Below, in pieces: positions 2,538 to 25,975 of a DNA stretch of 26,164 bases (positions within the stretch are counted from its first letter, which is position 1; the number at the start of each line of letters is the position of its first letter). The notes beneath the pieces are model-generated. The model was not told the origin of the DNA. It saw nothing but the letters and a program-made list of their open reading frames with translations, and did no database searches. The DNA lies in IMG/VR virus record IMGVR_UViG_3300046463_000073, positions 1-26,164 of that record, one strand, 5' to 3'. The position numbers and the translations under genes were made by a program. Source of the stretch: a virus.

Positions 2538-3866
2538 ATGTCTATCGCAGAAAAAATCAAAGCACTCCGCGCACGCCTCGCACAAGCTGAAGCAGCGCGT
2601 AACGACCTCGTAGCTAAGTCGGTCGCAGAAGATCGCAGCCTCACGGACGACGAAGTTAAGCAATATAACGACTTCGGCTCGGAACTCGACGCAGGCGCAG
2701 CAGAATTGGGCCGTCTGGAGACCGTGGAGCGCTCGATTGCAGCGCAGGCCGTGGCAGTGGCTAAGGGCGGCGTCCCGGTCCAGAATCCGGCTACCCTCGA
2801 AGTCAAGCAGAACGCCCCGAAGGGTTCGGCATTCACGCGTACCGCTATGGTGCTGGCGAAGGCTAACGGCAATCTGTCGGTAGCTAAGGACCTCGTGGAA
2901 GCCCACTACAAGGACGACGCGGTTACGACCGGTATTATCAAGTCGGCAGTCTCGGCAGGTTCTACGCAAGTCGCAGCATGGGCCGGTAACTTGGTGTACC
3001 CGGAGCAGTACGGCGGTGACTTTATCGAACTCCTGTACCCGCAAACGGTCCTTGGTCGCCTGTCGCTGAAGAAGGTTCCGTTTAACGTCCGCATCGCGGG
3101 TATGACGGGCGGTACTTCGGTAGGCTGGGTGGGCGAAGCTGCACCGGCGCCGGTTACTTCGGCAGCGTTTAACGCTGTGTTCCTGACGTGGAGCAAGGTG
3201 TACGCCCTGTCGGTCCTCTCGCAGGAAATTATCCGCTTCAGCAATCCGGCAGTGGAAGCGATGGTTCAATCGGACCTCGTGCGCGCTACGGCACAGGGTA
3301 TCGACGCCACGTTCCTCGGCAGCGCGGCAGCAGTGCCGAACATCTCGCCCGCAGGTATGCTCAACGGCGTTACGCCTGTCGCAGCTACCGGCTCGGATTA
3401 CGAGTCGCTGCGTAAGGATGTGCAAGCCCTGATTGCTCCGGTTATCGCGGCTAACTATAACCTCTCGACTGCGGTTCTGGTTATGTCCCCGGCCCGTTCG
3501 CTGGCTATCGCTTCGATGCTTACCCCGCTGGGTACGCTGGCATTCCCGACTATGAACGGCACGGAAGGCGGCTACCTCATGGGTCTGCGTGTTATCACGT
3601 CGAATAACGTGAGCGGCTCGGCTATCTACCTGTTTATCCAGGATGAAATCTTCCTGTCGGAAGACGCAGGCCCGCAGATCGACATCTCGACGGAAGCCAG
3701 CATCATTATGGACAGCGCACCGGGCACGGGTGGAGCACTCACGGCACAGCCTACGAGCATGTTCCAGAATAACCTCGTGGCTATCCGTATCGGCCAGTTC
3801 ATTAACTGGGCGAAGCGTCGTAACCTCGCGGTCGCTTCCATCTCGGGCGCAGCCTACGGCTCGTAA
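2538..3866 (+). CDS. Major capsid protein, HK97 fold
   Basis: The 442-aa protein starts at the ATG preceded by AATAAGGA; an in-frame upstream start at 2472 lies inside the protease gene and is not needed. Residues 1 to about 100 are charged and helical (SIAEKIKALRARLAQAEAAR...), the expected delta domain removed by the protease. The rest has HK97-family features: AGNLVYPEQYGGDFIELL, then a Gly/Val-rich E-loop and P-domain region, and an A-domain with VLVMSPARSLAIASML. Codons differ from neighbours, with many TCG, CTG and GGT, as expected of a very highly expressed gene. A GC-rich hairpin follows the stop. Confidence 0.95.
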   Translation: MSIAEKIKALRARLAQAEAARNDLVAKSVAEDRSLTDDEVKQYNDFGSELDAGAAELGRLETVERSIAAQAVAVAKGGVPVQNPATLEVKQNAPKGSAFTRTAMVLAKANGNLSVAKDLVEAHYKDDAVTTGIIKSAVSAGSTQVAAWAGNLVYPEQYGGDFIELLYPQTVLGRLSLKKVPFNVRIAGMTGGTSVGWVGEAAPAPVTSAAFNAVFLTWSKVYALSVLSQEIIRFSNPAVEAMVQSDLVRATAQGIDATFLGSAAAVPNISPAGMLNGVTPVAATGSDYESLRKDVQALIAPVIAANYNLSTAVLVMSPARSLAIASMLTPLGTLAFPTMNGTEGGYLMGLRVITSNNVSGSAIYLFIQDEIFLSEDAGPQIDISTEASIIMDSAPGTGGALTAQPTSMFQNNLVAIRIGQFINWAKRRNLAVASISGAAYGS

Positions 3867-3873
3867 TACTAAC

Positions 3874-3893
3874 GCCCCGCTTCGCGGCGGGGC
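3874..3893 (+). terminator. GC-rich hairpin after the capsid gene
   Basis: GCCCCGC and GCGGGGC form a perfect 7-bp stem around a 6-base loop, 7 bases after the capsid stop. There is no run of T after it, so it does not look like a strong intrinsic terminator. It could be a partial terminator or an mRNA-stabilising 3' end that keeps capsid transcript high relative to downstream genes. Confidence 0.4.
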
Positions 3894-3909
3894 ATAGCTT
3901 AGGATACCT

Positions 3910-4089
3910 ATGCGTCCACGCGACATTCTGCAAATCTATAACGCTATCAAGGCGGGCCTTATCGTCCTCCAGTTCTCGGGTAGCGCCCCTGCTGTCGGCA
4001 CGGGTGTTAATGGGAGCATCGCTCTCGACGCGAAGGACGGGAAGCGGTACGTGAAGGCCGCAGGCGCTTGGAGCGTCGCTTCTGTTTAA
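3910..4089 (+). CDS. Small head-region protein, 59 aa, unknown
   Basis: A short ORF, starting MRPRDILQIYNAIKAG, with an AGGA 5 bases upstream of its ATG. The C-terminal half contains GVNGSIALDAKDGKRYVKAAGAWSV. This resembles the short 'G..ALD...G..Y.K..GAW' elements seen in many phage structural proteins, where they form small beta-structured modules. Position right after the capsid gene and before the portal suggests a minor head or decoration protein. That is inference from context; I do not recognise the family. Confidence 0.65.
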   Translation: MRPRDILQIYNAIKAGLIVLQFSGSAPAVGTGVNGSIALDAKDGKRYVKAAGAWSVASV

Positions 4090-13226: not shown

Positions 13227-15110
13227 ATGGCGCAAACTGTTTTACTAGTTACAGCCGGGACTACTTGGACGGTCCCTGCCGACTGCTCGGGAACTCTGGA
13301 CCTCGTGGAGGTCTGGGGAGCGGGGGCAAGCGGTAACGCGGACGCCCCGAACGGCTCGGGCGGTGGTGGCTCGGGCGGCTACTCCAGTAGTGCGGGTCTC
13401 ACAGGCTACACCCCAGGTGCGTCTATCCCGATTGGGCTGGGCGCAGGCGGTCCCTCGTCTTCTAACGGCACGGGCGCGGGCTTCGCGGGCGGGGACTCAT
13501 GGTTTAACGGGACATCCGCTGCTACCGGCGTAGTTTCCGCTAAGGGTGCTCCGGCCACGGCCAGCGGCTCCACGGCGGGCGGTGCTGGGGCAAGCACTAC
13601 CGGGGCCAACGGTACTACGAAGCGGGCTGGATCAGCGGGCGGCTCCGGGCGCAACGCAGCGAACGGCGGAGCAGGGGGCGGGGCAGGTGCTCCCGGCCCG
13701 GACGGTCTGGGCGCAGTCGGCGCCGCGTCCACTACCAGCGCGGGCGGTGCGGGCGGCGCAGGCGATAACAGCCTGGGCGGCGCAAAGGGCACGGCAGGCG
13801 CAGCCACAGGCACGGGTAACGGGGGCGTAGGAGCAGCCAACGCTAACGGCGGTGGGGGCGGCGGCGGAGGCGGGGGCGGTGCTACCGGCTCTACTTCGAA
13901 CGGCAATAACGGCGCAGACGGGGGCTTCCCCGGCGCAGGTTCGGGCGGATCGGGCTGGGGCGGAAGCTACAGCGGCAAAGGCGGGGACGGACAAATCCGG
14001 ATTACCTACACGCCCGCATCTACCGGCATTACCGGCACGGCAGCGAGCACGCAGGCCGCGAACACGGGCGCAGCTACGGCTAGCGTTACGGTCTCGGGCG
14101 CGGCAGCAGCCACGCAAGCGAAGAACACTGCCACGGCCTCCGGCTCGGTAGCTATCTCCGGCTCGGCGGCGTCCACGGACTCAAAGGACACGTCCTCCGC
14201 CTCGGGGTCTGTCGCGGTCTCTGGGGCTGCTGCGGCCACACAGGCTAAGAACACCTCCAGCGCTACAGCTAGTGTTGGTAACGGGACAATACAAGGCAGC
14301 GGGGCCAGCACGCAGGCTAAGAACGTCTCTGCCGCTACGGCGAAGGTCTCCGTATCCGGCTCGGGTGCAGCTACTCAGGCTCGGAATATCAGCACGGCTA
14401 CGGCATTCTCCGCAGCCCCCGCCCCCGTTATCACGGGAGGCATTACCGCAGCCGTCCAGCAGCTAGAGCCGGGTGCGCTGATTGAGCTTTACGAATTGGA
14501 CTGTACGGAGATGGGCGGAGACGTTCTGCGTTTTCACGCCCTCCTTCAGACCGGCCCTATCGTATGGCAGGGTAACTCGTACTCTCCGTGGCCTATCACA
14601 GCAGCGGGCTTCGAGCGGACCGGGGACAGTAGCCAGCCCTCCCCGACTCTCACAGTAGCGAACGTGGACGGCAGTATCTCCGCCCTCTGTATCTTCCTCG
14701 GGGACCTCGTAGGCGCGAAGGTAACGCGCAGGCGCACCCTAGCGCAGTATCTCGACGGCCAGCCGGGGGCGGACGCTACGCAGGAGATGCCTCCGGAGAA
14801 GTGGTACGTGGAGCAGAAGACCTCGGAGGATAACCTCCAGGTGGAATTTACGCTCTCGTCCGTGCTGGACTTCTCGGGACGGCAGCTTCCCTCGCGGCAG
14901 GTAGTCGCTACGCTTTGTCAGTGGGATTACAAGGGTACGGAGTGCGGCTGGACGGGCGTTACCTTCTTCGATAAGGACAATAACCCTGTCTCGGACCCTT
15001 CGCAGGACCGTTGCGGGAAGCGGCTGTCTAGCTGTAAGTGTCGCTTCGGGGCTACTAACGCCCTGCCCTTCGGCGGGTTCCCGTCTGCTGGTATCTCGGG
15101 GACTATCTAA
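13227..15110 (+). CDS. Glycine-rich/repeat/gpL fusion minor tail protein
   Basis: A 627-aa three-part protein with a TTAGGAGG Shine-Dalgarno. Residues 1-260 form a glycine-rich domain opening VLLVTAGTTWTVPADCSGTLDLVEVWGAG and including eleven glycines in a row at 208-218; the style matches Gly-rich phage adhesin domains with polyglycine helices. Residues 271-396 are six tandem units of about 21 aa. Residues 400-627 are gpL-like: LIELYELDCTEMGGDVLRFH, IVWQGNSYSPWPITAAGFERTG and VLDFSGRQLPSRQVVATLCQWDYKGTECGW. Cysteines 564, 573, 596 and 603 have spacing C-x8-C-x22-C-x6-C, the pattern I associate with the Fe-S cluster of lambda gpL. Lambda gpL is about 232 aa, so the N-terminal 400 residues are extra. 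Confidence 0.88.
   Translation: MAQTVLLVTAGTTWTVPADCSGTLDLVEVWGAGASGNADAPNGSGGGGSGGYSSSAGLTGYTPGASIPIGLGAGGPSSSNGTGAGFAGGDSWFNGTSAATGVVSAKGAPATASGSTAGGAGASTTGANGTTKRAGSAGGSGRNAANGGAGGGAGAPGPDGLGAVGAASTTSAGGAGGAGDNSLGGAKGTAGAATGTGNGGVGAANANGGGGGGGGGGGATGSTSNGNNGADGGFPGAGSGGSGWGGSYSGKGGDGQIRITYTPASTGITGTAASTQAANTGAATASVTVSGAAAATQAKNTATASGSVAISGSAASTDSKDTSSASGSVAVSGAAAATQAKNTSSATASVGNGTIQGSGASTQAKNVSAATAKVSVSGSGAATQARNISTATAFSAAPAPVITGGITAAVQQLEPGALIELYELDCTEMGGDVLRFHALLQTGPIVWQGNSYSPWPITAAGFERTGDSSQPSPTLTVANVDGSISALCIFLGDLVGAKVTRRRTLAQYLDGQPGADATQEMPPEKWYVEQKTSEDNLQVEFTLSSVLDFSGRQLPSRQVVATLCQWDYKGTECGWTGVTFFDKDNNPVSDPSQDRCGKRLSSCKCRFGATNALPFGGFPSAGISGTI
14037..14411 (+). repeat. Six tandem 63-bp coding repeats (21-aa units)
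   Basis: Within the gpL fusion the units share the pattern AAxTQAKNTxxATxSVxVSG. Five are 21 residues and the fourth has three extra (GNGTIQG variant); the sixth runs into the gpL domain. DNA copies have diverged in sequence, so this is an old protein-level repeat rather than a recent expansion. It probably forms a repeated Ser/Thr/Ala linker or small beta modules joining the glycine-rich arm to the tail tip. Confidence 0.8.
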
Positions 15111-16410: not shown

Positions 16411-19400
16411 ATGCCGACACAGGCCGATGATTCGCTTAGTAGTACAGCGTATGCTCAAATACTGGACCTCATATCCGAAGGTCCGATTTTTGGCCCCGCT
16501 AATTCAGAAACCCCGGCCCGCTCGGTATATTTCAACGGGACCGTAGTCCAGAACTCGGACGGGTCCAATAACTTTAATGTTAAGCAAGTAGACCTTCGGA
16601 CGGGCACGCTTACGCAGGACCCGATTAGCGGCTTCGATAGCACGGAAAATGAGGTAGGCGTGGGCGTGGAGCTTAAGGCTTCTGCCCCTTGGGTTCATAC
16701 CGTAACTAACCTCGCCCTCTCTGCCCTGCGCGTTACGCTCAGTGTTAGCGCCCTCTCGAAGACGAACTCCAATACCGGGGACGTAACGGGCTATCAGGTC
16801 GCGTACCAGATTCAGCTATCGAAGGACGGCGGGCAGTACACCACGGTAGTAGACACGTCCTTTAATGGTAAGGCCTCGTCCGTCTACCAGCGCTCGCACC
16901 GTATCGAACTCTCCGGGGCCGCGTCGCAGTACACGGTTAAGGTTATCCGCATTACGGGGGATACCTCGGATGTCTACACCCAGGACACTACGAACGTAGT
17001 TAGCTACACGGAACTTATAGACGCGAAGCTCCGCTACCCCCTGAGTGCGCTCTGTGGCGTACAGCTAGACGCCTCGGAGTTCTCCAGCGTTCCTACGCGT
17101 TCGTACGATATGAAGGGGCTACTTATCAAGTACCCCAGTAACTATAACCCGCTGCTCCGCTCGTACGGCGGGACGTGGGACGGCACGTTTATTACGGGCT
17201 GGACGGATAACCCCGCGTGGGTCTTCTATGACCTCGTGCTTAACTCCCGCTACGGCCTCGGCAAGTGGGTAGACGCAAGCATGATAGACCGTTACGCGCT
17301 GTACCAAATCGCCCAGTACTGCGATGTCATGGTATCGGACGGTGCGGGCGGGCTGGGGCCTCGCTTCTCCTGCAATTGCTACATCGCTTCTCGGGAGGAC
17401 GCGTACAAGGTCCTCCAGGACATCGCTAGCGTCTTCCGTGGTATGGCGTACTGGTCCGCAGGCAGCGTTACGGCTACCTCGGATATGCCTCTGGACACGG
17501 CGTACGTGTACACGGCTGCTAACGTTATCGGCGGGTCCTTCAAGTACGTAGGCTCCAGCCTGAAGACGCGCTATACCTGTGCCGTGGTTACATGGAATGA
17601 TCCGGAGAACGGCTATCAGCAGGCAGTAGAGTACGTGGAGGACGCGGACGGCGTAGCTCGGTACGGAATCAATAAGGCCCAGCTTACGGCCTTCGCCTGC
17701 ACGAGCCGCGCGCAAGCGCAGCGCGTGGGCCAGTGGACGCTTCTTACCTCGCGGTACGAGACGAATACGGTTACGTTCTCCGTGGGGCTGGACGGGACGC
17801 TTGCACAGCCCGGACAGATTATCGCAGTAGCGGACCCCTCGCGCGCTGGGAAGCGCACGGGCGGGCGTATCAAAGCGGCCAGCCTCACCACTCAGGTAAC
17901 ACTCGATAAGGCGCTAGACGGGACGGCAGCGGGCGATACGCTTACTGTAATCCTCCCGTCCGGGAAGGCGGAATCCAAGACCGTAAGCGCGGTCTCGGGG
18001 GCGGTTATTACCGTCTCGCAGGGATTCTCCGTGGTTCCGGCTGCGGGTTCCGTGTGGATGCTTGAAAGCTCTACGCTTAAGTCCCAGCTATTCCGCGTGG
18101 CTTCGGTCGCAGAGAAGGACGGGATTACGTTTGAGATTACCGCTACCCAGCACGAGCCGGGGAAATACGCGGCTATCGACAACGGCGCGGCTATCGACTT
18201 CCGCCCGATCACAGGTAACACGCTTACCGTGCAGGCCCCGCCCACTGGCGTAACCGTCTCGCAGTACGTGGTTACGGACCAGGGTATATCTAAGACCAAT
18301 ATGTCCATCTCGTGGGCGGCTGCGGCTAACGCGGTCTCCTACACGGTCCAGTGGCGTAAGGATAACGGGGACTGGATTACGGCAGGCACTACGGGCGGGC
18401 TGTCGCTGGACGTAAGTAACATATACTCCGGCAGCTACACGGCCCGTGTCCGCGCTACGAACGGGCTAGACATTAGCTCCCCGTACGCGTACTCGTCCCT
18501 TACCGGCCTGCTGGGTAAGACGGGTGCTCCTCCTGTGGTCGCTACTCTCACGGCCAGTACGGATAAGGTCTTCGCTGTCAATGTGGCGTGGACGTTCCCG
18601 GCGGGTGCGGGAGACACGGCGTACACGGAGGTGTATTACAGCCACACGGCTAACTTTGCCTCCGCTACGCAGCAAGGGCGCTACAGCTATCCGACTACCA
18701 GCGCGAACCTGCTGGGCCTCTCGGCGGGGTATGACTTGTACTTCTGGGTCCGCCTCGTAGACACTACGGGTAACGTAGGTGCGTTCTATCCGGCTACCAC
18801 AGCGGCAGGCGTACACGGCCAGTCCAGCGCGGACGCTACGGCGGTCCTCGCGTACCTAACGGCGCAGATTACGCAGACGCAACTAGCACAGGATGTGCTC
18901 GCACCCGTGCAGGCTATCCCAGGTATTCAGACGAGCATTGCGGCCAATAGTACGGCTATCTCGCAGGAGGTAACGAACCGGACTACGGCTATCGCCAACG
19001 AGGCCGCAGCGCGCGGCGCAGCTATCACCTCGGAGGCTAACACCCGGCAGGCTGCGGACGACTCCCTTAGCTCCCGTATCGATACGGTTACGGCTTCGGC
19101 TACGTCCAATGCCTCCGCGATTCAGGCGGAGCAAACGGCGCGTGCTAACGGGGATTCGGCTAACGCCACGAGCATTACGGCCCTTACGGCTGTGGTCGGA
19201 ACTAAAAATACAACATTCCGCCAGAACATCCAGCCGGTAGCGCAGGCTGTCGGGGACACGTGGGTAGACACTGGCAGCACTAACCTCCTCAAGTACTCGG
19301 GCACGTTCGGTGATGCTTCGTGGACGAAAGTCCAGGGGTCCATTACGGCGGGTACGGGGACTGCTCCGGACGGTACGCCCTTCTTCAAGTTCGTAGAAGA

Positions 19401-20865
19401 CACTACCAATACCCAGCATTACCTAAGCCGTACGGACATCTCCATAACGGCGGGCCTTGCTTACACGGTAAGCGCGTACGCCAAGGCCGGAGAACGTAGG
19501 TATCTCTGCCTCGGGTTCCGTACCGGGGCGAATTGGGCGGGCGCACAACCGTCCGCTACGTTCGATCTTACTTCGGGGACTGTGAACCTCCAAGGGACGC
19601 AGGCCACGGCTAAGATTGTCGCGTGCGGAGGCGGGGTATATCGATGCTCCGTAACGGCTACGGCATCTGCCACGTTCTCAAGCGGACCGTTCCTCCAGTT
19701 GCTCGCAGCGGGGGGGACCCTCGGCGTGTCATACGCTGGGGACGGGGCCAGCGGCCTTTATATGACGGACGCCCAAGTAGAGCAATCCACCGGGGCGGGC
19801 CGCTACATCCCGACTGCTGCCGCTTCCGTAAGCACGGTAGGAAACAATAACCTCCTCGTGTGGGACGGTGCTACGTGGGTTCTGTCGCAAGACGCGGCAA
19901 TCCCCGCTAACACTGCGGCCATTACTTCGGAGGCCACTACCCGCGCTACGGCGGACTCAGCATTAAGCACGCGTATTGATACGCTCTCGACTACGGTATC
20001 CGGCAACACGTCCGCTATCTCGTCCGAAGCTACTACGCGGGCTAACGCAGATTCGGCAATGGCTACGCAGATTACGCAGCTTCAGGCGCAGTACTCCCCG
20101 GCCCCGCTCGCGGGAGACCCGGCGGGCTTCGCAGGTAATCCTACTGCGTACGCAGGCGTCTATTCGGAGATGACTGCACGGGCGGAGGCGGACCTCGCGC
20201 TCTCCCAGAAGACGGACACGGTATCCGCAGCGATCACCACAGCCAGTAGCAATATGACTGCGGCAATCAACGCAGAGACCCAGGCACGGGTAGACGCGGA
20301 CTCGGCTACCGCCTCGCAGATTACGACTGTGCAGGCCAGCGTTACTACGGTGCAGTCTAACTTAGACGGCGTTAATAACACGCTAACAGCAGCCGTACAG
20401 ACCAACGCCAACGCGTACGCGGACCTTAACGGACGTGTAGCGGCCTCGTACACAATCAAAACTCAAATAACGAGCAACGGGCGTACGTACATCGCGGGTA
20501 TCGGCGTAGGCGTGGATAACTCTAGCGGGACGGTGGAATCTCAGGTGCTCGTAGCGGCGTCGCGGTTCGCCATTCTGGACCCTAACGGGACGGCAGTCTC
20601 CTCGCCTTTCGTTGTGCAGGGCGGGCAGGTGTTTATGTCGTCGGCGTTCATCGCGGACGCGTCCATTACGAACGCGAAGATTAGCGGGAATATTCAGTCT
20701 AACGCCGTGGGCGCTAATGGACAGCCTCGATGGGTTCTCAATCGGGACGGCACTCTCCAGCTTAACGGAGCAAACGGGGGTAGCGGATACTTGCTTATGA
20801 ATGACTCACAGTTGCTCGTCTATGACGGTAATAACACGCTCCGCGTCCGTCTGGGTCTCTGGTAA
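16411..20865 (+). CDS. Tail tip attachment protein, gpJ-like, with inserted lectin-like domain
   Basis: This 1484-aa central tip protein is the probable receptor-binding spike. The N-terminal 560 residues follow lambda gpJ (LSSTAYAQILDLISEGPIFG..., ...LLIKYPSNYNP...GTWDGTF..GWTDNPAWVFYDLVLNSRYGLG). Two fibronectin III-like domains lie at about 610-700 and 705-793. Helical stalks at about 809-934 and 1160-1300 carry repeats like EATTRA.ADSALSTRI. A DUF1983-like C-terminus (about 1310-1484) reads ASYTIKTQITSNGRTYIAGIGVGV...SQVLVAASRFAI. Residues about 959-1145 (NLLKYSG.F...SWTKV...GTAPDGTPFFKFVED...) look like a carbohydrate-binding jelly-roll inserted into a short WVDTG...LLVWDGATW module. Confidence 0.93.
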   Translation: MPTQADDSLSSTAYAQILDLISEGPIFGPANSETPARSVYFNGTVVQNSDGSNNFNVKQVDLRTGTLTQDPISGFDSTENEVGVGVELKASAPWVHTVTNLALSALRVTLSVSALSKTNSNTGDVTGYQVAYQIQLSKDGGQYTTVVDTSFNGKASSVYQRSHRIELSGAASQYTVKVIRITGDTSDVYTQDTTNVVSYTELIDAKLRYPLSALCGVQLDASEFSSVPTRSYDMKGLLIKYPSNYNPLLRSYGGTWDGTFITGWTDNPAWVFYDLVLNSRYGLGKWVDASMIDRYALYQIAQYCDVMVSDGAGGLGPRFSCNCYIASREDAYKVLQDIASVFRGMAYWSAGSVTATSDMPLDTAYVYTAANVIGGSFKYVGSSLKTRYTCAVVTWNDPENGYQQAVEYVEDADGVARYGINKAQLTAFACTSRAQAQRVGQWTLLTSRYETNTVTFSVGLDGTLAQPGQIIAVADPSRAGKRTGGRIKAASLTTQVTLDKALDGTAAGDTLTVILPSGKAESKTVSAVSGAVITVSQGFSVVPAAGSVWMLESSTLKSQLFRVASVAEKDGITFEITATQHEPGKYAAIDNGAAIDFRPITGNTLTVQAPPTGVTVSQYVVTDQGISKTNMSISWAAAANAVSYTVQWRKDNGDWITAGTTGGLSLDVSNIYSGSYTARVRATNGLDISSPYAYSSLTGLLGKTGAPPVVATLTASTDKVFAVNVAWTFPAGAGDTAYTEVYYSHTANFASATQQGRYSYPTTSANLLGLSAGYDLYFWVRLVDTTGNVGAFYPATTAAGVHGQSSADATAVLAYLTAQITQTQLAQDVLAPVQAIPGIQTSIAANSTAISQEVTNRTTAIANEAAARGAAITSEANTRQAADDSLSSRIDTVTASATSNASAIQAEQTARANGDSANATSITALTAVVGTKNTTFRQNIQPVAQAVGDTWVDTGSTNLLKYSGTFGDASWTKVQGSITAGTGTAPDGTPFFKFVEDTTNTQHYLSRTDISITAGLAYTVSAYAKAGERRYLCLGFRTGANWAGAQPSATFDLTSGTVNLQGTQATAKIVACGGGVYRCSVTATASATFSSGPFLQLLAAGGTLGVSYAGDGASGLYMTDAQVEQSTGAGRYIPTAAASVSTVGNNNLLVWDGATWVLSQDAAIPANTAAITSEATTRATADSALSTRIDTLSTTVSGNTSAISSEATTRANADSAMATQITQLQAQYSPAPLAGDPAGFAGNPTAYAGVYSEMTARAEADLALSQKTDTVSAAITTASSNMTAAINAETQARVDADSATASQITTVQASVTTVQSNLDGVNNTLTAAVQTNANAYADLNGRVAASYTIKTQITSNGRTYIAGIGVGVDNSSGTVESQVLVAASRFAILDPNGTAVSSPFVVQGGQVFMSSAFIADASITNAKISGNIQSNAVGANGQPRWVLNRDGTLQLNGANGGSGYLLMNDSQLLVYDGNNTLRVRLGLW
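19281..19857 (+). repeat. 10-bp direct repeats bounding a domain insertion
   Basis: TAACCTCCTC occurs at 19281-19290 and at 19848-19857, exactly 567 bases (189 codons) apart and in the same codon phase. The copies coincide with the two edges of the lectin-like domain inside gpJ. Removing one unit would restore a continuous WVDTGSTNLLVWDGATW. The repeats could mark the recombination that brought the domain in. Confidence 0.65.
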
Positions 20866-22607: not shown

Positions 22608-22863
22608 TAATCTCGTAATCCTCGTCCTGCTCGCGGCCTGCGCTTGTATGTCCGGCTGTGCGGCCCCGGCCCCTGTGGTCCAGGTTAAGGCCCTCGTGCC
22701 TCCGGATGAATTCCTGAAGGACTGCACGCACGCCCCCCGCCCTGCTGGCAGGACCGTAGCGGACCTCGCCCAATGGCTAATCAACGAACGCGGCCAGCTA
22801 GACGCCTGCACGGCGGACAAGGCAGCGCTCCGCGCGTGGAAGGCTGGGGTAGCTACGCCGTGA
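22597..22863 (+). CDS. Outer-membrane spanin lipoprotein, Rz1-like
   Basis: I chose the ATG at 22597 because it begins a lipoprotein signal (MLRNNLVILVLLAACACMSGC) with possible lipobox cysteines at C15, C17 and C21; an Arg-rich extension to an upstream start at 22366 is a shadow of the Rz-like gene. The 88-aa product is Pro/Ala-rich after the lipobox (AAPAPVVQVKALVPPDEF), as usual for Rz1. It overlaps the i-spanin by 11 bases and ends in a GTGA overlap with the next gene. Confidence 0.82.
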   Translation: MLRNNLVILVLLAACACMSGCAAPAPVVQVKALVPPDEFLKDCTHAPRPAGRTVADLAQWLINERGQLDACTADKAALRAWKAGVATP

Positions 22864-23177
22864 GGTCTACGTACACGGTGCAGCCGTATGGTCTGAAGAT
22901 TGTTTATACGGACACGGTGAAGGAGTTCCACGCGCTCCGACACTCGGGCGTGGACTTCCGGGGAACGGCGGGCGGCTTCGATGCTGGTAAGAAGGTAGAC
23001 GGAGTGATTGGGGTTTTCGACGGGAAGTTAATGACGCTTGTACACGAGTGCGTACACGCGGCCTCCGCCCTGCTCCAGACGTGCGGGATTGACCCGCTAT
23101 CGAATACTGCGGAGCCTCTGGCGTACTTGGTGGATCACCTCGTAGCCGTGGGCCGGAAGCGGCTAGCATTGCGCTAG
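22860..23177 (+). CDS. Small HExxH putative metallopeptidase, 105 aa
   Basis: A GTG at 22860 overlapping the o-spanin stop (GTGA) is the most likely start; the longer in-frame ATG at 22773 lies wholly inside the spanin gene. The protein is GLKIVYTDTVKEFHALRHSGVD...DGVIGVFDGKLMTLVHECVHAASALLQTCGID...NTAEPLAYLVDHL. H62-E63-x-x-H66 is a zincin motif, and E85 in EPLAYLV could be the third ligand. Similar small HECVHA proteins occur in other phages without known function. It is the last late gene, in the place where lysis accessories sit. Whether it degrades protein, peptidoglycan or nothing is unknown. Confidence 0.75.
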   Translation: MRSTYTVQPYGLKIVYTDTVKEFHALRHSGVDFRGTAGGFDAGKKVDGVIGVFDGKLMTLVHECVHAASALLQTCGIDPLSNTAEPLAYLVDHLVAVGRKRLALR

Positions 23178-23184
23178 CTCCGTC

Positions 23185-23208
23185 TGTGGGTAACTGCCCT
23201 GTGGATAA
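23185..23208 (-). promoter_or_regulatory. Two DnaA boxes
   Basis: TGTGGATAA at 23200-23208 is the exact reverse complement of the consensus TTATCCACA. TGTGGGTAA at 23185-23193 differs from it by one base. The two are in the same orientation, 15 bases apart start to start, directly beside the iteron-like repeats. Confidence 0.75.
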
Positions 23209-23211
23209 GTA

Positions 23212-23309
23212 AGATAGTCCTCACCCATGAGGAGTGTTGCGGAAAAACTACAATCACAGGTGAGGACTAAATGGGCATTTTCGGGGTAGATAGTCCTCAC
23301 CCATGAGGA
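23212..23309. repeat. Iteron-like repeats with core TAGTCCTCACC
   Basis: A 22-bp identical sequence occurs at 23212-23233 and 23288-23309, starts 76 bp apart. Each contains TCCTCA-CCCA-TGAGGA, an inverted repeat of 6 bp arms (7 bp in the second copy). The core TAGTCCTCACC is repeated once more in the opposite orientation at 23259-23269. They are likely binding sites of the neighbouring winged-helix protein, as initiator iterons or autoregulatory operators. Confidence 0.75.
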
Positions 23310-23352
23310 CCTATAAAGACTCTATATATCTAAAGCTTTTAAAGTCTCCGGC

Positions 23353-23937
23353 CTATTCGTCTGATGTGGTGCTGTCCTTGGGGATAACTTCTATCGTCCC
23401 GTTGTAGTAGGTGTTATTGACTACGCTATTCGGGGCCTGCGTTATAAAGTTCGCATTGAGGGTAATCTTTACCTCTAGGCCCTTTCCTAGCTTCCCGGAC
23501 GAGGCCAGCCCCTCAAGCTGCTTACGCAGGGCTTCGAATTGGAGCGGGATGTACTTCGCCTCGCCCTGCCCTACTACCTGCCGGGAGGCCTTGTCTACGA
23601 GCGGGATAGCCTCTACGAGTTCGTACTCGTTACCCCGGCTGTCCTTGCCCGTGCTCTTTTGCTTTTTCACGAGACCTAGCTCCACGAGGCGGTTAATAGC
23701 GCGGTCTACTGTCGGCTCGGACGCCCCTATGTGGCGCGCTATCAAGTCCCGTCCGGGGTTACTGTAGCCAGCCTCCAGAGAGGCGTAGCTCTTTAGCACC
23801 ACGTAGACGCAGAAGGCCGTAGCGCCCATCTCCGCGATTCTGTCCCGCTGGACCATCGCCCGTAGGACGTGAAAGAAAAGCGTCTCCGCCTGCACGTTAT
23901 CCGGCCAGAGTTCGCCCTGTACCTCCTCTTCTTCCAT
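23353..23937 (-). CDS. Putative plasmid replication initiator (winged-helix)
   Basis: A 194-aa protein. After an acidic N-terminus (MEEEEVQGELWPDN) comes a helix-turn-helix of the HTH_36 type: GATAFCVYVVLKSYASLEAGYSNPGRDLIARHIGASEPTVDRAINRLVELGLVKKQK at about 38-94, as in several plasmid and phage initiators. The C-terminus is unlike anything I know (KITLNANFITQAPNSVVNNTYYNGTIEV). Its start overlaps the stop of the RHH gene upstream, so it is the third gene of parA-RHH-rep. Together with the iterons and DnaA boxes just beyond its 3' end it fits an initiator. A purely regulatory role cannot be excluded. Confidence 0.65.
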   Translation of the reverse strand: MEEEEVQGELWPDNVQAETLFFHVLRAMVQRDRIAEMGATAFCVYVVLKSYASLEAGYSNPGRDLIARHIGASEPTVDRAINRLVELGLVKKQKSTGKDSRGNEYELVEAIPLVDKASRQVVGQGEAKYIPLQFEALRKQLEGLASSGKLGKGLEVKITLNANFITQAPNSVVNNTYYNGTIEVIPKDSTTSDE

Positions 23938-24332
23938 TACCCGCCCCTCCCGTGCTTCGCGGCCCGCTCCCCCTTCAGGGCGGCTAGCTGCTTCCGCAGG
24001 GCCACGGCTACTACGTCCTTCTGCTTCAGGCGAGTAAGGAGGCAGAACTCCCGCAGTTCCTCGGATAGGTCTGTAGGGATTCTCACGTTAAGGGGTACGC
24101 CGGGGTCCGGCCTCTCCTCCCGCGTAGCGGCCCACGCGGGATAGGCGGGCTTCGCAGGGTCCGGGAGGTGCGCTGATACCTCCGAGGGTGCGGGAGGGGC
24201 ACTGAGGGGCTGTACGGCGGTCTGGTCCGGGTCCGGGACAGCATTAATCACCGTGGAAGCCTTCTGTAAGTCTTCCAATACCGTGCTGCGGTTCGGGCGG
24301 GCAGCGGACATTGTGGGCTGTGGCTTCGTCAT
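23937..24332 (-). CDS. Ribbon-helix-helix partition protein (ParB-like adaptor)
   Basis: A 131-aa protein with a flexible Pro/Ala-rich N-terminal 75 residues. Its C-terminal ribbon-helix-helix fold has a strand LNVRIP at 81-86, helix DLSEELREFCLLTRL, and helix QKDVVAVALRKQLAAL. It is coded directly after parA with an ATGA overlap, the arrangement of type Ib partition systems. In those systems a small RHH protein binds the centromere, represses the operon and stimulates the ParA ATPase. The long disordered N-terminus would carry the ParA-interacting segment. The start at residue 8 (MSAARP) is an alternative. Confidence 0.8.
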   Translation of the reverse strand: MTKPQPTMSAARPNRSTVLEDLQKASTVINAVPDPDQTAVQPLSAPPAPSEVSAHLPDPAKPAYPAWAATREERPDPGVPLNVRIPTDLSEELREFCLLTRLKQKDVVAVALRKQLAALKGERAAKHGRGG

Positions 24333-25003
24333 TTTCCGTAGACCTCCAAGTAGACGGACTTAATCTCGTGGGCTGCTTTGGCGTCGAAGTCATCGCCCGC
24401 CATCTCACACACGCCCCGGCCCTGCGCCATAGCTAGCTTGAAGGATTCGCGGGAGCCTACTAGCGTGCTGCACCTCGGTAGTAGGTCGGAGAATTGTTTC
24501 ATCTCCTCAATCATTACTTTAGTCAGACGTTTGCGCGGGTCCGCCTCATTGAGCACCACTTGAGCGTTAATGCTGCGGCCTAGCGTCTCCGTGAGGCTCC
24601 CCAGCGCTGCGTACAGAGCAGGAACCGTCTTCAGGTCCGCAGGCGAGGGCTTGAGGGGCACTACGATAGCGTCCCCGGCAGCGAGAGCAGCACGGGCTAG
24701 CCTCGTGTCCTTGCCCCCTACGTCTATGAAAACGTCCGTGTAGCCGTCTATCGCTTCTGCCAGCAAGGCTCCGAACTCGTCTACAAGGTCGCCTTCCAAC
24801 AAATGTTTAAGCGTACGGCCCTCGATACGCTGCACGTCCGCTAGCCCGCTACGCTCCTCTACCCACGCTTGGCTAGTCTCCTGCCCGTCTAGGTCCAGAA
24901 GCACACACTTGTAATTCAATGCGGCCCGAATTGCGGCTAGGTTCTGACAAAACGTGCTTTTCCCCGTGCCGCCTTTCTGTGCGACTACACAAGTAACACT
25001 CAT
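24329..25003 (-). CDS. parA: ParA-family partition ATPase, type Ib-like
   Basis: A 224-aa P-loop ATPase of the ParA/MinD class. The deviant Walker A is KGGTGKST at residues 10-17, with the signature lysine K10. The Walker A' strand is CVLLDLDGQETSQAW with D37 and D39, and the Walker B-like strand FIDVGGKD lies near 92-99. There is no N-terminal DNA-binding domain, so it is a short type Ib ParA; the RHH partner would supply DNA binding and autoregulation. AGGA lies 8 bases before the ATG on the minus strand. It should segregate the phage genome as a low-copy plasmid during lysogeny. Confidence 0.93.
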   Translation of the reverse strand: MSVTCVVAQKGGTGKSTFCQNLAAIRAALNYKCVLLDLDGQETSQAWVEERSGLADVQRIEGRTLKHLLEGDLVDEFGALLAEAIDGYTDVFIDVGGKDTRLARAALAAGDAIVVPLKPSPADLKTVPALYAALGSLTETLGRSINAQVVLNEADPRKRLTKVMIEEMKQFSDLLPRCSTLVGSRESFKLAMAQGRGVCEMAGDDFDAKAAHEIKSVYLEVYGK

Positions 25004-25177
25004 GTTTTAGTCCTAGGAGTGGTGAATTGTTGCAGTAGCGTAGCCTATACGGCGGGGTAGTACAAGGGGAGTAAAGACGGGCCGCTCTATTACGAGGGAT
25101 ACGGAAAACAAACTAGCAAACTAGCTAGGCGGGTAGCTAGTCGGGGAGAGGCCCGTAAGCCCCTCCGTCCGGCTGTA
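25004..25177 (-). promoter_or_regulatory. par operon promoter/centromere region
   Basis: This 174-bp gap separates parA from the lipoprotein gene; both are on the minus strand. It holds a TCCTAGGA palindrome at 25011-25018, just before the parA Shine-Dalgarno, and a CTAG-rich repeat cluster at 25110-25141. No convincing sigma70 hexamer pair stands out; TTGTAC near 25056-25061 is a possible -35. A GC-rich imperfect hairpin near 25144-25170 could end lipoprotein transcription. Confidence 0.5.
25110..25141. repeat. CTAG-centred direct and inverted repeats (candidate parS/operator)
   Basis: AAACTAGC is repeated back to back at 25110-25117 and 25118-25125. Overlapping the second copy, ACTAGCTA (25120-25127) and TAGCTAGT (25134-25141) form a perfect 8-bp inverted repeat with a 6-bp spacer. 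Four CTAG occur within 33 bases. RHH partition proteins bind short tandem direct and inverted repeats upstream of parA, so this is the best candidate centromere. Confidence 0.65.
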
Positions 25178-25975
25178 TTACTTACCTTCTGCCGTGAGCT
25201 TCAGGCGGTTAGCGATGTCTGCGGCTACTGCCTGCGTCCGCAGGTTAAGCAGGTAGGCGTCCGGGGTGCGGCAGTCCTCGCCCATGTGGCCCGCCGTGAG
25301 GGTATCCACGTTCCTACCGTCCGGCCCTACGACAATCGGGCCAGCACCAAGGCCCGTCTGGAAGGCGAAGCCTGCAATGGCAGCTTGGGTAATCGCGTTC
25401 CGCAGGCCCTCGGTAGCGGAGAAGCCCACGGGCGAAGCGTCGCAACTCTGAATAGGCATAACGATAAACGTATTCTTTCCCGAGACGTGGCCCCGCTGGA
25501 TGAATACCGTAAGGTCCTGCTGGAATTGCGCGAGGGACGCTGCTTGGCTCGGGACGTCGATCGTAGATACCATATCGTCCAGCGTGAAATTAACGATAAG
25601 CCACTCGCTCGGGTCCGTCTTGAACTGGTCCGGAGTCGGCGGGAGGCCGTTGTTCTCGCCCATAACAATAGCGTGCAGCGTGGTTCCGTCCATCACTTGG
25701 GCGGTTACGTTCGCCGTAACGCCTTGGGCTGCGAGGGCGTCCGTAAGGCTCTGGACCGTCTCGGCTGCTGCGTCCGAGGCGGAGACCGGGGCGGCTGCGC
25801 TGGCAGCGTCCGAAGCTGCGGCCTTCGCGGTGGATTTCACGGTAGCGCCCAGCGGATTCCCGTAGAAGGACAGAGTAGGGTGCTTGACAGTCGGGGCCGG
25901 GGTGGAATCGCTACCTCCGCCTCCGCAGGCTGCGAGGGAGAGGGCAAGGGTTACGGCAGCGGCAAGTTTGTACAT
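25178..25975 (-). CDS. Putative lipoprotein, possibly degenerate SGNH hydrolase fold
   Basis: A 265-aa protein with a lipoprotein signal peptide MYKLAAAVTLALSLAAC and lipid-acceptor C17, then a Gly/Ser/Pro linker. PTLSFYGNPLGATVK at 33-47 resembles an SGNH block I (FYGDSL) with the Ser-containing GDS changed to GNP. WLIVNFTLDDMV near 125-136 resembles the INFG.ND block, and TAGHMGEDCRTPD near 228-239 the C-terminal His region. C178 and C235 could form a disulfide. If right it is a surface pseudo-enzyme. It is separate from the par operon and may be expressed in lysogens, for example for superinfection exclusion or conversion; this is inference. Confidence 0.6.
   Translation of the reverse strand: MYKLAAAVTLALSLAACGGGGSDSTPAPTVKHPTLSFYGNPLGATVKSTAKAAASDAASAAAPVSASDAAAETVQSLTDALAAQGVTANVTAQVMDGTTLHAIVMGENNGLPPTPDQFKTDPSEWLIVNFTLDDMVSTIDVPSQAASLAQFQQDLTVFIQRGHVSGKNTFIVMPIQSCDASPVGFSATEGLRNAITQAAIAGFAFQTGLGAGPIVVGPDGRNVDTLTAGHMGEDCRTPDAYLLNLRTQAVAADIANRLKLTAEGK

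Follow-up and report, generated by a model that had tools for sequence, protein, structure and literature searches.

The locus described here raises the question of whether a short gap between the lysis genes of a phage and a winged-helix gene is a plasmid replication origin, and whether the phage is maintained inside its host in plasmid form. The whole stretch of DNA analysed, called the window (26,164 bp), is a fragment of a phage genome, as it is shorter than its near-complete relatives (46.9-48.3 kb). It carries terminase and portal genes (PF20441, PF04860, phrog_9, phrog_12), tail genes and spanin-like genes, followed by a leftward operon, and thus phage structural genes, ParA and the proposed rep are found on one molecule. 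A sequence-only reading of this DNA had proposed an iteron-type plasmid origin beside the winged-helix gene. Our analyses strengthen that proposal through family-wide conservation that extends to plasmids, covariation between a protein helix and the repeats, and the replacement of the unit by a Rep_3 cassette in a sister phage. Based on these comparisons, we consider it very probable that positions 23178-23937 form a self-contained iteron-type plasmid replicon (origin plus the initiator gene, which is read towards it) in a phage that probably persists extrachromosomally. The features discussed are collected in Table 1.

Table 1. Features of the proposed replicon and its surroundings (window coordinates unless a relative is named).
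Feature	Position	Strand	Remarks
Convergent late gene	22773..23177	+	phrog_1365; beside Rz/Rz1-like spanin genes; 3' end borders origin
Candidate plasmid replication origin (oriV)	23178..23352	.	DnaA boxes, three iterons, AT-rich segment
DnaA-box-like site	23185..23193	-	TTACCCACA, one mismatch
Perfect DnaA box	23200..23208	-	TTATCCACA
Iteron 1	23212..23233	+	22 bp, AGATAGTCCTCACCCATGAGGA; palindrome TCCTCA-N4-TGAGGA
Iteron 2	23254..23269	-	Inverted, partly degenerate; one full half-site TAGTCCTCA
Iteron 3	23288..23309	+	22 bp, AGATAGTCCTCACCCATGAGGA; same palindrome
AT-rich segment, candidate unwinding element	23309..23343	.	77% AT
Proposed rep, winged-helix replication initiator	23353..23937	-	194 aa; HTH_36; phrog_270
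Small gene, predicted probable RHH-type centromere-binding partner of ParA	23937..24332	-	131 aa
ParA partition ATPase	24329..25003	-	224 aa; PF13614, PF01656, phrog_164; NF041546 below its cut-off
Repeat cluster, candidate centromere	25105..25140	.	CTAGCTAG/GCTAGTTT; upstream of parA
Tyrosine-recombinase homologue	G003 34865-35764 (L020:2865-3764); G004 998-1891; G006 about 937-1755; G007 18611-19501		

The gap spans the 175 bp between the stop codons of the late gene and the 194-aa frame, in agreement with its earlier placement 3' of rep between convergent operons. Two DnaA boxes had been claimed; one is perfect, and TTATNCACA occurs only once in the 26,164 bp, at that site, while the other carries a single mismatch. 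In the relatives G001 and G003, both positions read TTATCCACA. The three TAGTCCTCACC elements described before, two of them within identical 22-bp copies, could all be located: the 11-mer is confined to the gap within the record, lies inside each of iterons 1 and 3 (100% identical, 76 bp apart) and recurs inverted in iteron 2 at 23259-23269. The palindrome within each 22-bp copy is an addition to that description. The figure of 77% AT also holds, and the segment ranks first in AT content among all 35-bp windows of the record. None of 200 dinucleotide-preserving shuffles of the window produced three copies of any 11-mer inside 175 bp, and none produced a 22-bp repeat inside 200 bp. A coarse count of degenerate 16-mer repeats in the window alone was unremarkable (matched by 22% of background windows), so the significance of the repeats in the window rests on the exact copies and not on the degenerate count, which was significant for many of the related loci. 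Exact 6-mer copy counts detected arrays poorly because the array copies are degenerate.

The 194-aa protein encoded next to the gap matches HTH_36 in domain searches and the replication initiation protein family phrog_270 (E 4.4e-10). The Rep_3 family (PF01051, Rep3_N model) was matched neither in the window (G000) nor in plasmid W01; the Rep3_N model was matched by G004 and G005. In an AlphaFold2 model, built from an alignment that left out the Polaromonas sequence, the part that includes a helix at residues 74-86 was predicted with high confidence and the C-terminal part with low confidence. The best structural matches of this model were RepA_N initiators (4pql, 4pt7; Z 9.5), tied with MarR-type proteins, and a sequence search of the PDB returned weak matches to regulators alone.

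When the window protein was used alone as a query, no relatives were found among 50,697 phage records; three close phage contigs and one full-length plasmid match (pA29BJ2) were recovered. The wider family came to light through alignments only, which added seven bacterial-genome contigs and some thirty viral contigs. In nearly all of these relatives, whether on phage contigs, in bacterial genomes or on plasmids, palindromic repeats directly follow the 3' end of the gene, with a half-site that varies by lineage, ATAG commonly in front and an AT-rich stretch present. At 16 of 21 loci the 300 bp 3' of the gene contain a DnaA box, compared with 2 of 1853 background windows (0.1%) taken from the same loci; the remaining 5 of the 21 had none by the pattern used. 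No iteron array was found 3' of the gene in the distant relatives L104 and L105. A ParA Walker motif was seen about 0.9-1.3 kb upstream at 19 of 31 loci, and a protein search added L098. The same initiator family also occurs in Desulfocapsa-type MAGs (L046 7947-8561 and its 3' region; L048, L049), whose hosts are far from the other hosts of the family and whose long palindromic arrays contain about eight or more CGGTC elements.

Two members of the family are on plasmids that deserve separate mention. The 104-kb Polaromonas plasmid pA29BJ2 has the order ParA, small gene, winged-helix gene, similar to the window, followed by the palindrome CCCTTA-N4-TAAGGG three times, at spacings of 33 and 32 bp, together with three DnaA boxes. 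Neither Rep_3 nor any other recognised initiator was found among its annotated products and ten scanned proteins, and its annotation names no phage structural gene. The open papers searched do not name this plasmid, and a 2018 survey of Polaromonas plasmids does not mention that strain series. A more distant member resides on the circular Acinetobacter plasmid pRBH2-3 (NZ_CP110465.1; L073, L111; 75,126 bp), which encodes an N4-type capsid gene; its locus has a less clear iteron array and no DnaA box by the pattern used. Over 95% of a 22-kb stretch, pRBH2-3 shares 98.6% identity with the isolated Acinetobacter phage vB_IME_Ab2712 (OK149216.1), which suggests that one element is on record both as a phage and as a plasmid. 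It is likely that pRBH2-3 is an N4-type phage-plasmid.

Four relatives of the window phage (G003, G004, G006 and G007) look near-complete judging from their contig ends. G003 (47,705 bp) has a 127-bp terminal repeat, and its ends are adjacent in G004. The ends of G004 and G005 lie about 300 bp upstream of a small-terminase-like gene, and G006 breaks close to the same position, a pattern expected of a cos-type site. G003 encodes a T7-like RNA polymerase, a family A DNA polymerase, a primase, a DnaB-like helicase, an ATP ligase and a lysozyme. The T7-like RNA polymerase and replication genes (L018:4032-6419, L020:12883-15285, L020:7767-10454) stand beside an HK022-like terminase and long-tail genes, a combination of terminase and RNA polymerase that recalls Xanthomonas phage Xp10. 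HNH-endonuclease-like genes dot the early regions (L018:549-1046, L020:2300-2605, L020:12374-12859, G007 13554-14057 and 2777-4018), and one of those in G007 appears by eye to be fused in frame before an exonuclease-like domain.

This gene content bears on whether the gap could be a lytic origin, like the lambda O/ori pair, in a phage with no plasmid prophage state. The weak matches of the 194-aa protein to O-like and DnaD-like phage replication families fit such an origin. However, the phage family already possesses its own T7-like RNA polymerase, family A DNA polymerase, primase, helicase and ligase, so that a DnaA-dependent origin would be superfluous for lytic growth and probably serves the prophage. 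In addition, a parA operon is attached to the cassette, and cassettes of this kind are also carried by one non-phage plasmid and by one circular phage-plasmid. We therefore regard a purely lytic origin as unlikely.

An integrase and att site elsewhere in the genome had been named in advance as evidence that would speak against a plasmid prophage. A tyrosine-recombinase homologue is indeed present in the near-complete relatives (G003, G004 and G007 by Pfam, G006 by protein search), yet it lacks catalytic residues; none was found in the 26-kb window fragment. In alignment with XerA, the position of Arg-I is occupied by Glu, and GxxR replaces HxxR in G003 and G004, while the GH motif is also gone in G006 and G007. 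The gene is still an open frame in both lineages. The recombinases of other phages that carry the same replicon have intact catalytic motifs, which indicates that the alignment method is able to detect them. Chromosomal integration by this degenerate homologue is unlikely. No lysogeny repressor was recognised among the scanned proteins.

If the 194-aa protein is an initiator that binds the gap repeats, its DNA-reading residues and the repeats might be expected to change together. Across 24 loci, with repeat words counted automatically and rest-of-protein similarity controlled for, repeat-word similarity correlated with identity at four variable positions of the helix (partial Mantel r 0.51, P 0.0002); the remainder of the protein gave r 0.28, and Mantel tests may exaggerate significance when sequences are related. 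A column-by-column test with no prior choice of positions ranked window residues 75, 74 and 78 first, third and fourth of 150, so that three of the top four predictors of the repeats fall in the recognition helix. These residues form the start of helix 74-86 in the AlphaFold2 model. With half-sites assigned by eye, KAQVH is paired with GGTCTC, KSQVL with GGTGTC and RQ(I/V)IN with GGTGCA. The covariation is indirect evidence for the predicted binding of the gap repeats by the recognition helix of the 194-aa protein.

A comparison of the sister phages G003 and G004 provides a further line of evidence. The two are about 97% identical across the lipoprotein gene, parA and the small gene. What follows in G003, beginning immediately behind the start codon of rep and ending a little beyond the DnaA boxes, has in G004 been replaced by a Rep_3 cassette comprising an opposite-strand Rep_3 gene (PF01051, PF21205), three 21-bp iterons and a DnaA box. 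Short flanks of 75-85 bp on either side of the cassette are 97.6% and 96% identical. In sequence terms, this difference is the exchange of one initiator-origin unit for another.

The exchange also bears on the possibility that the small RHH-like protein binds the gap repeats as a partition centromere (parS). Such a role would suit the position of ParA and the small gene next to the cassette, and mycobacteriophages Miko and Rachaly have a parS array immediately 3' of their repA gene (PMC7157519). The gap repeats do not appear to be the centromere, because the small protein is kept in G004 while the repeats are lost; relative to the window, identity in G004 and G005 is 91% for the small protein and 93% for ParA. 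Moreover, the repeat sequence tracks the recognition helix of the winged-helix protein, and the cluster upstream of parA is conserved in 6 of the 6 genomes compared (G000, G001, G003, G004, G006 and G007) whatever the rep type. That cluster is a better centromere candidate on comparative grounds, and a centromere in the gap is very unlikely. With respect to the partner gene, the parA and RHH genes claimed earlier for this operon fared differently: ParA stands on its family matches, whereas the 131-aa protein matched no family in domain and phrog searches, and its model (pLDDT 53) has a helix-helix C-terminus that resembles, with low confidence, ribbon-helix-helix, the fold of the second protein in type Ib partition systems (ParA plus RHH). 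Upstream of parA, a leftward lipoprotein-like gene (phrog_8011; 25178-25975) accompanies the par genes in close relatives and is possibly a prophage-expressed surface protein.

The winged-helix protein could instead be a transcriptional regulator, either a lysis-lysogeny repressor or an autoregulator of the par operon, with the palindromes as its operators. Its winged-helix domain does resemble MarR-type regulators, its structural match to initiators is tied with regulators, and palindromes with 6-bp arms are typical of operators. Yet the sites are located 3' of the gene, where two transcription units converge, a scan of 22900-25300 detected no promoter-like site, DnaA boxes accompany the palindromes, the unit is swapped one-for-one with a Rep_3 initiator cassette, and pA29BJ2 has no other recognised initiator. 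Regulation as the main function is accordingly highly improbable, and the protein may have an additional regulatory role beside initiation. A bidirectional transcription terminator, suggested by the converging genes and by arms of 6-7 bp with a 4-nt loop, is extremely unlikely, as no terminator-like site was scored in the gap and the DnaA boxes, the covariation and the conservation would be left unexplained.

Taken together, the occurrence of the cassette on both plasmids and phages, the helix-repeat covariation and the swap in a sister phage suggest that the window phage is probably maintained as a plasmid by its host. We predict that the winged-helix protein would bind the iterons through its recognition helix, recruit DnaA to the adjacent boxes, open the AT-rich segment and load the host replisome. 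Partition of the copies would be the task of ParA and the small protein, acting from the separate site upstream of parA. In this way, the rep-origin cassette would keep the phage extrachromosomal as a phage-plasmid prophage, and the T7-like polymerase, primase and helicase would replicate it in the lytic cycle. Read-through from the late genes into the gap is possible because the gap contains no terminator-like site, and late transcription running into the origin could be a point of conflict, although opposing transcription can activate an origin so placed, as in plasmid RA3 (PMC9455977).

Several known systems share parts of this arrangement. Gram-positive RepA_N initiators (4pt7, 4pql, 5kbj, 4pta) and DnaD would share with the modelled protein an extended winged-helix N-terminal domain; the Z 9.5 matches are tied with transcription factors, and there is no sequence match to these structures. 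P1 is a phage-plasmid. Cluster A mycobacteriophages carry parABS/repA in place of integration functions (PMC7157519). Like the window phage, both couple the structural genes of a phage to rep and par functions typical of plasmids, but here an HK022-like terminase and a T7-like RNA polymerase accompany the plasmid functions, and a degenerate recombinase remains. HTH_36-domain Rep proteins with iterons are known from the Paracoccus plasmids pAES7, pMARC3 and pMOS2 (PMC3832669), which are similar in having an HTH_36 initiator and iteron-like repeats at the origin. By its published description, pAES7 differs in that a partial iteron overlaps the start codon of rep; in the window, the array is palindromic and 3' of rep, and belongs to a parA operon in a phage. 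Rep_3 replicons share iterons, a DnaA box and an AT-rich segment; however, the Rep_3 gene of G004 lies on the opposite strand with iterons upstream of it, and the window protein has no Rep_3 match. The oriV of IncU plasmid RA3 lies at the 3' end of its initiator gene, where opposing transcription activates rather than harms the origin (PMC9455977). RA3 thus resembles the window in having an origin 3' of the initiator gene that faces opposing transcription, but its repeat anatomy differs.

Our search of open papers found none on this family with 3' palindromes or on a phage-plasmid with T7-like replication genes. We lean slightly towards the view that ParA, a small RHH-like gene, a winged-helix initiator and 3' palindromic iterons define an undescribed replicon family common to diverse phages and plasmids, in which helix and half-site would coevolve as a readable code that sets incompatibility, and in which phages would escape it by exchanging whole rep-ori cassettes, with the start codon of the initiator gene as the junction.

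In conclusion, this study provides a specific sequence signature by which a plasmid replicon can be recognised in metagenomic phages and in isolates, where current annotation says no more than 'helix-turn-helix protein'. A strictly lytic life is usually assumed for phages with T7-like replication genes, but this group appears to keep a plasmid lifestyle. The swap of unrelated initiators at one site, together with the correspondence between helix and iteron, makes phage-plasmid incompatibility and initiator specificity directly testable.
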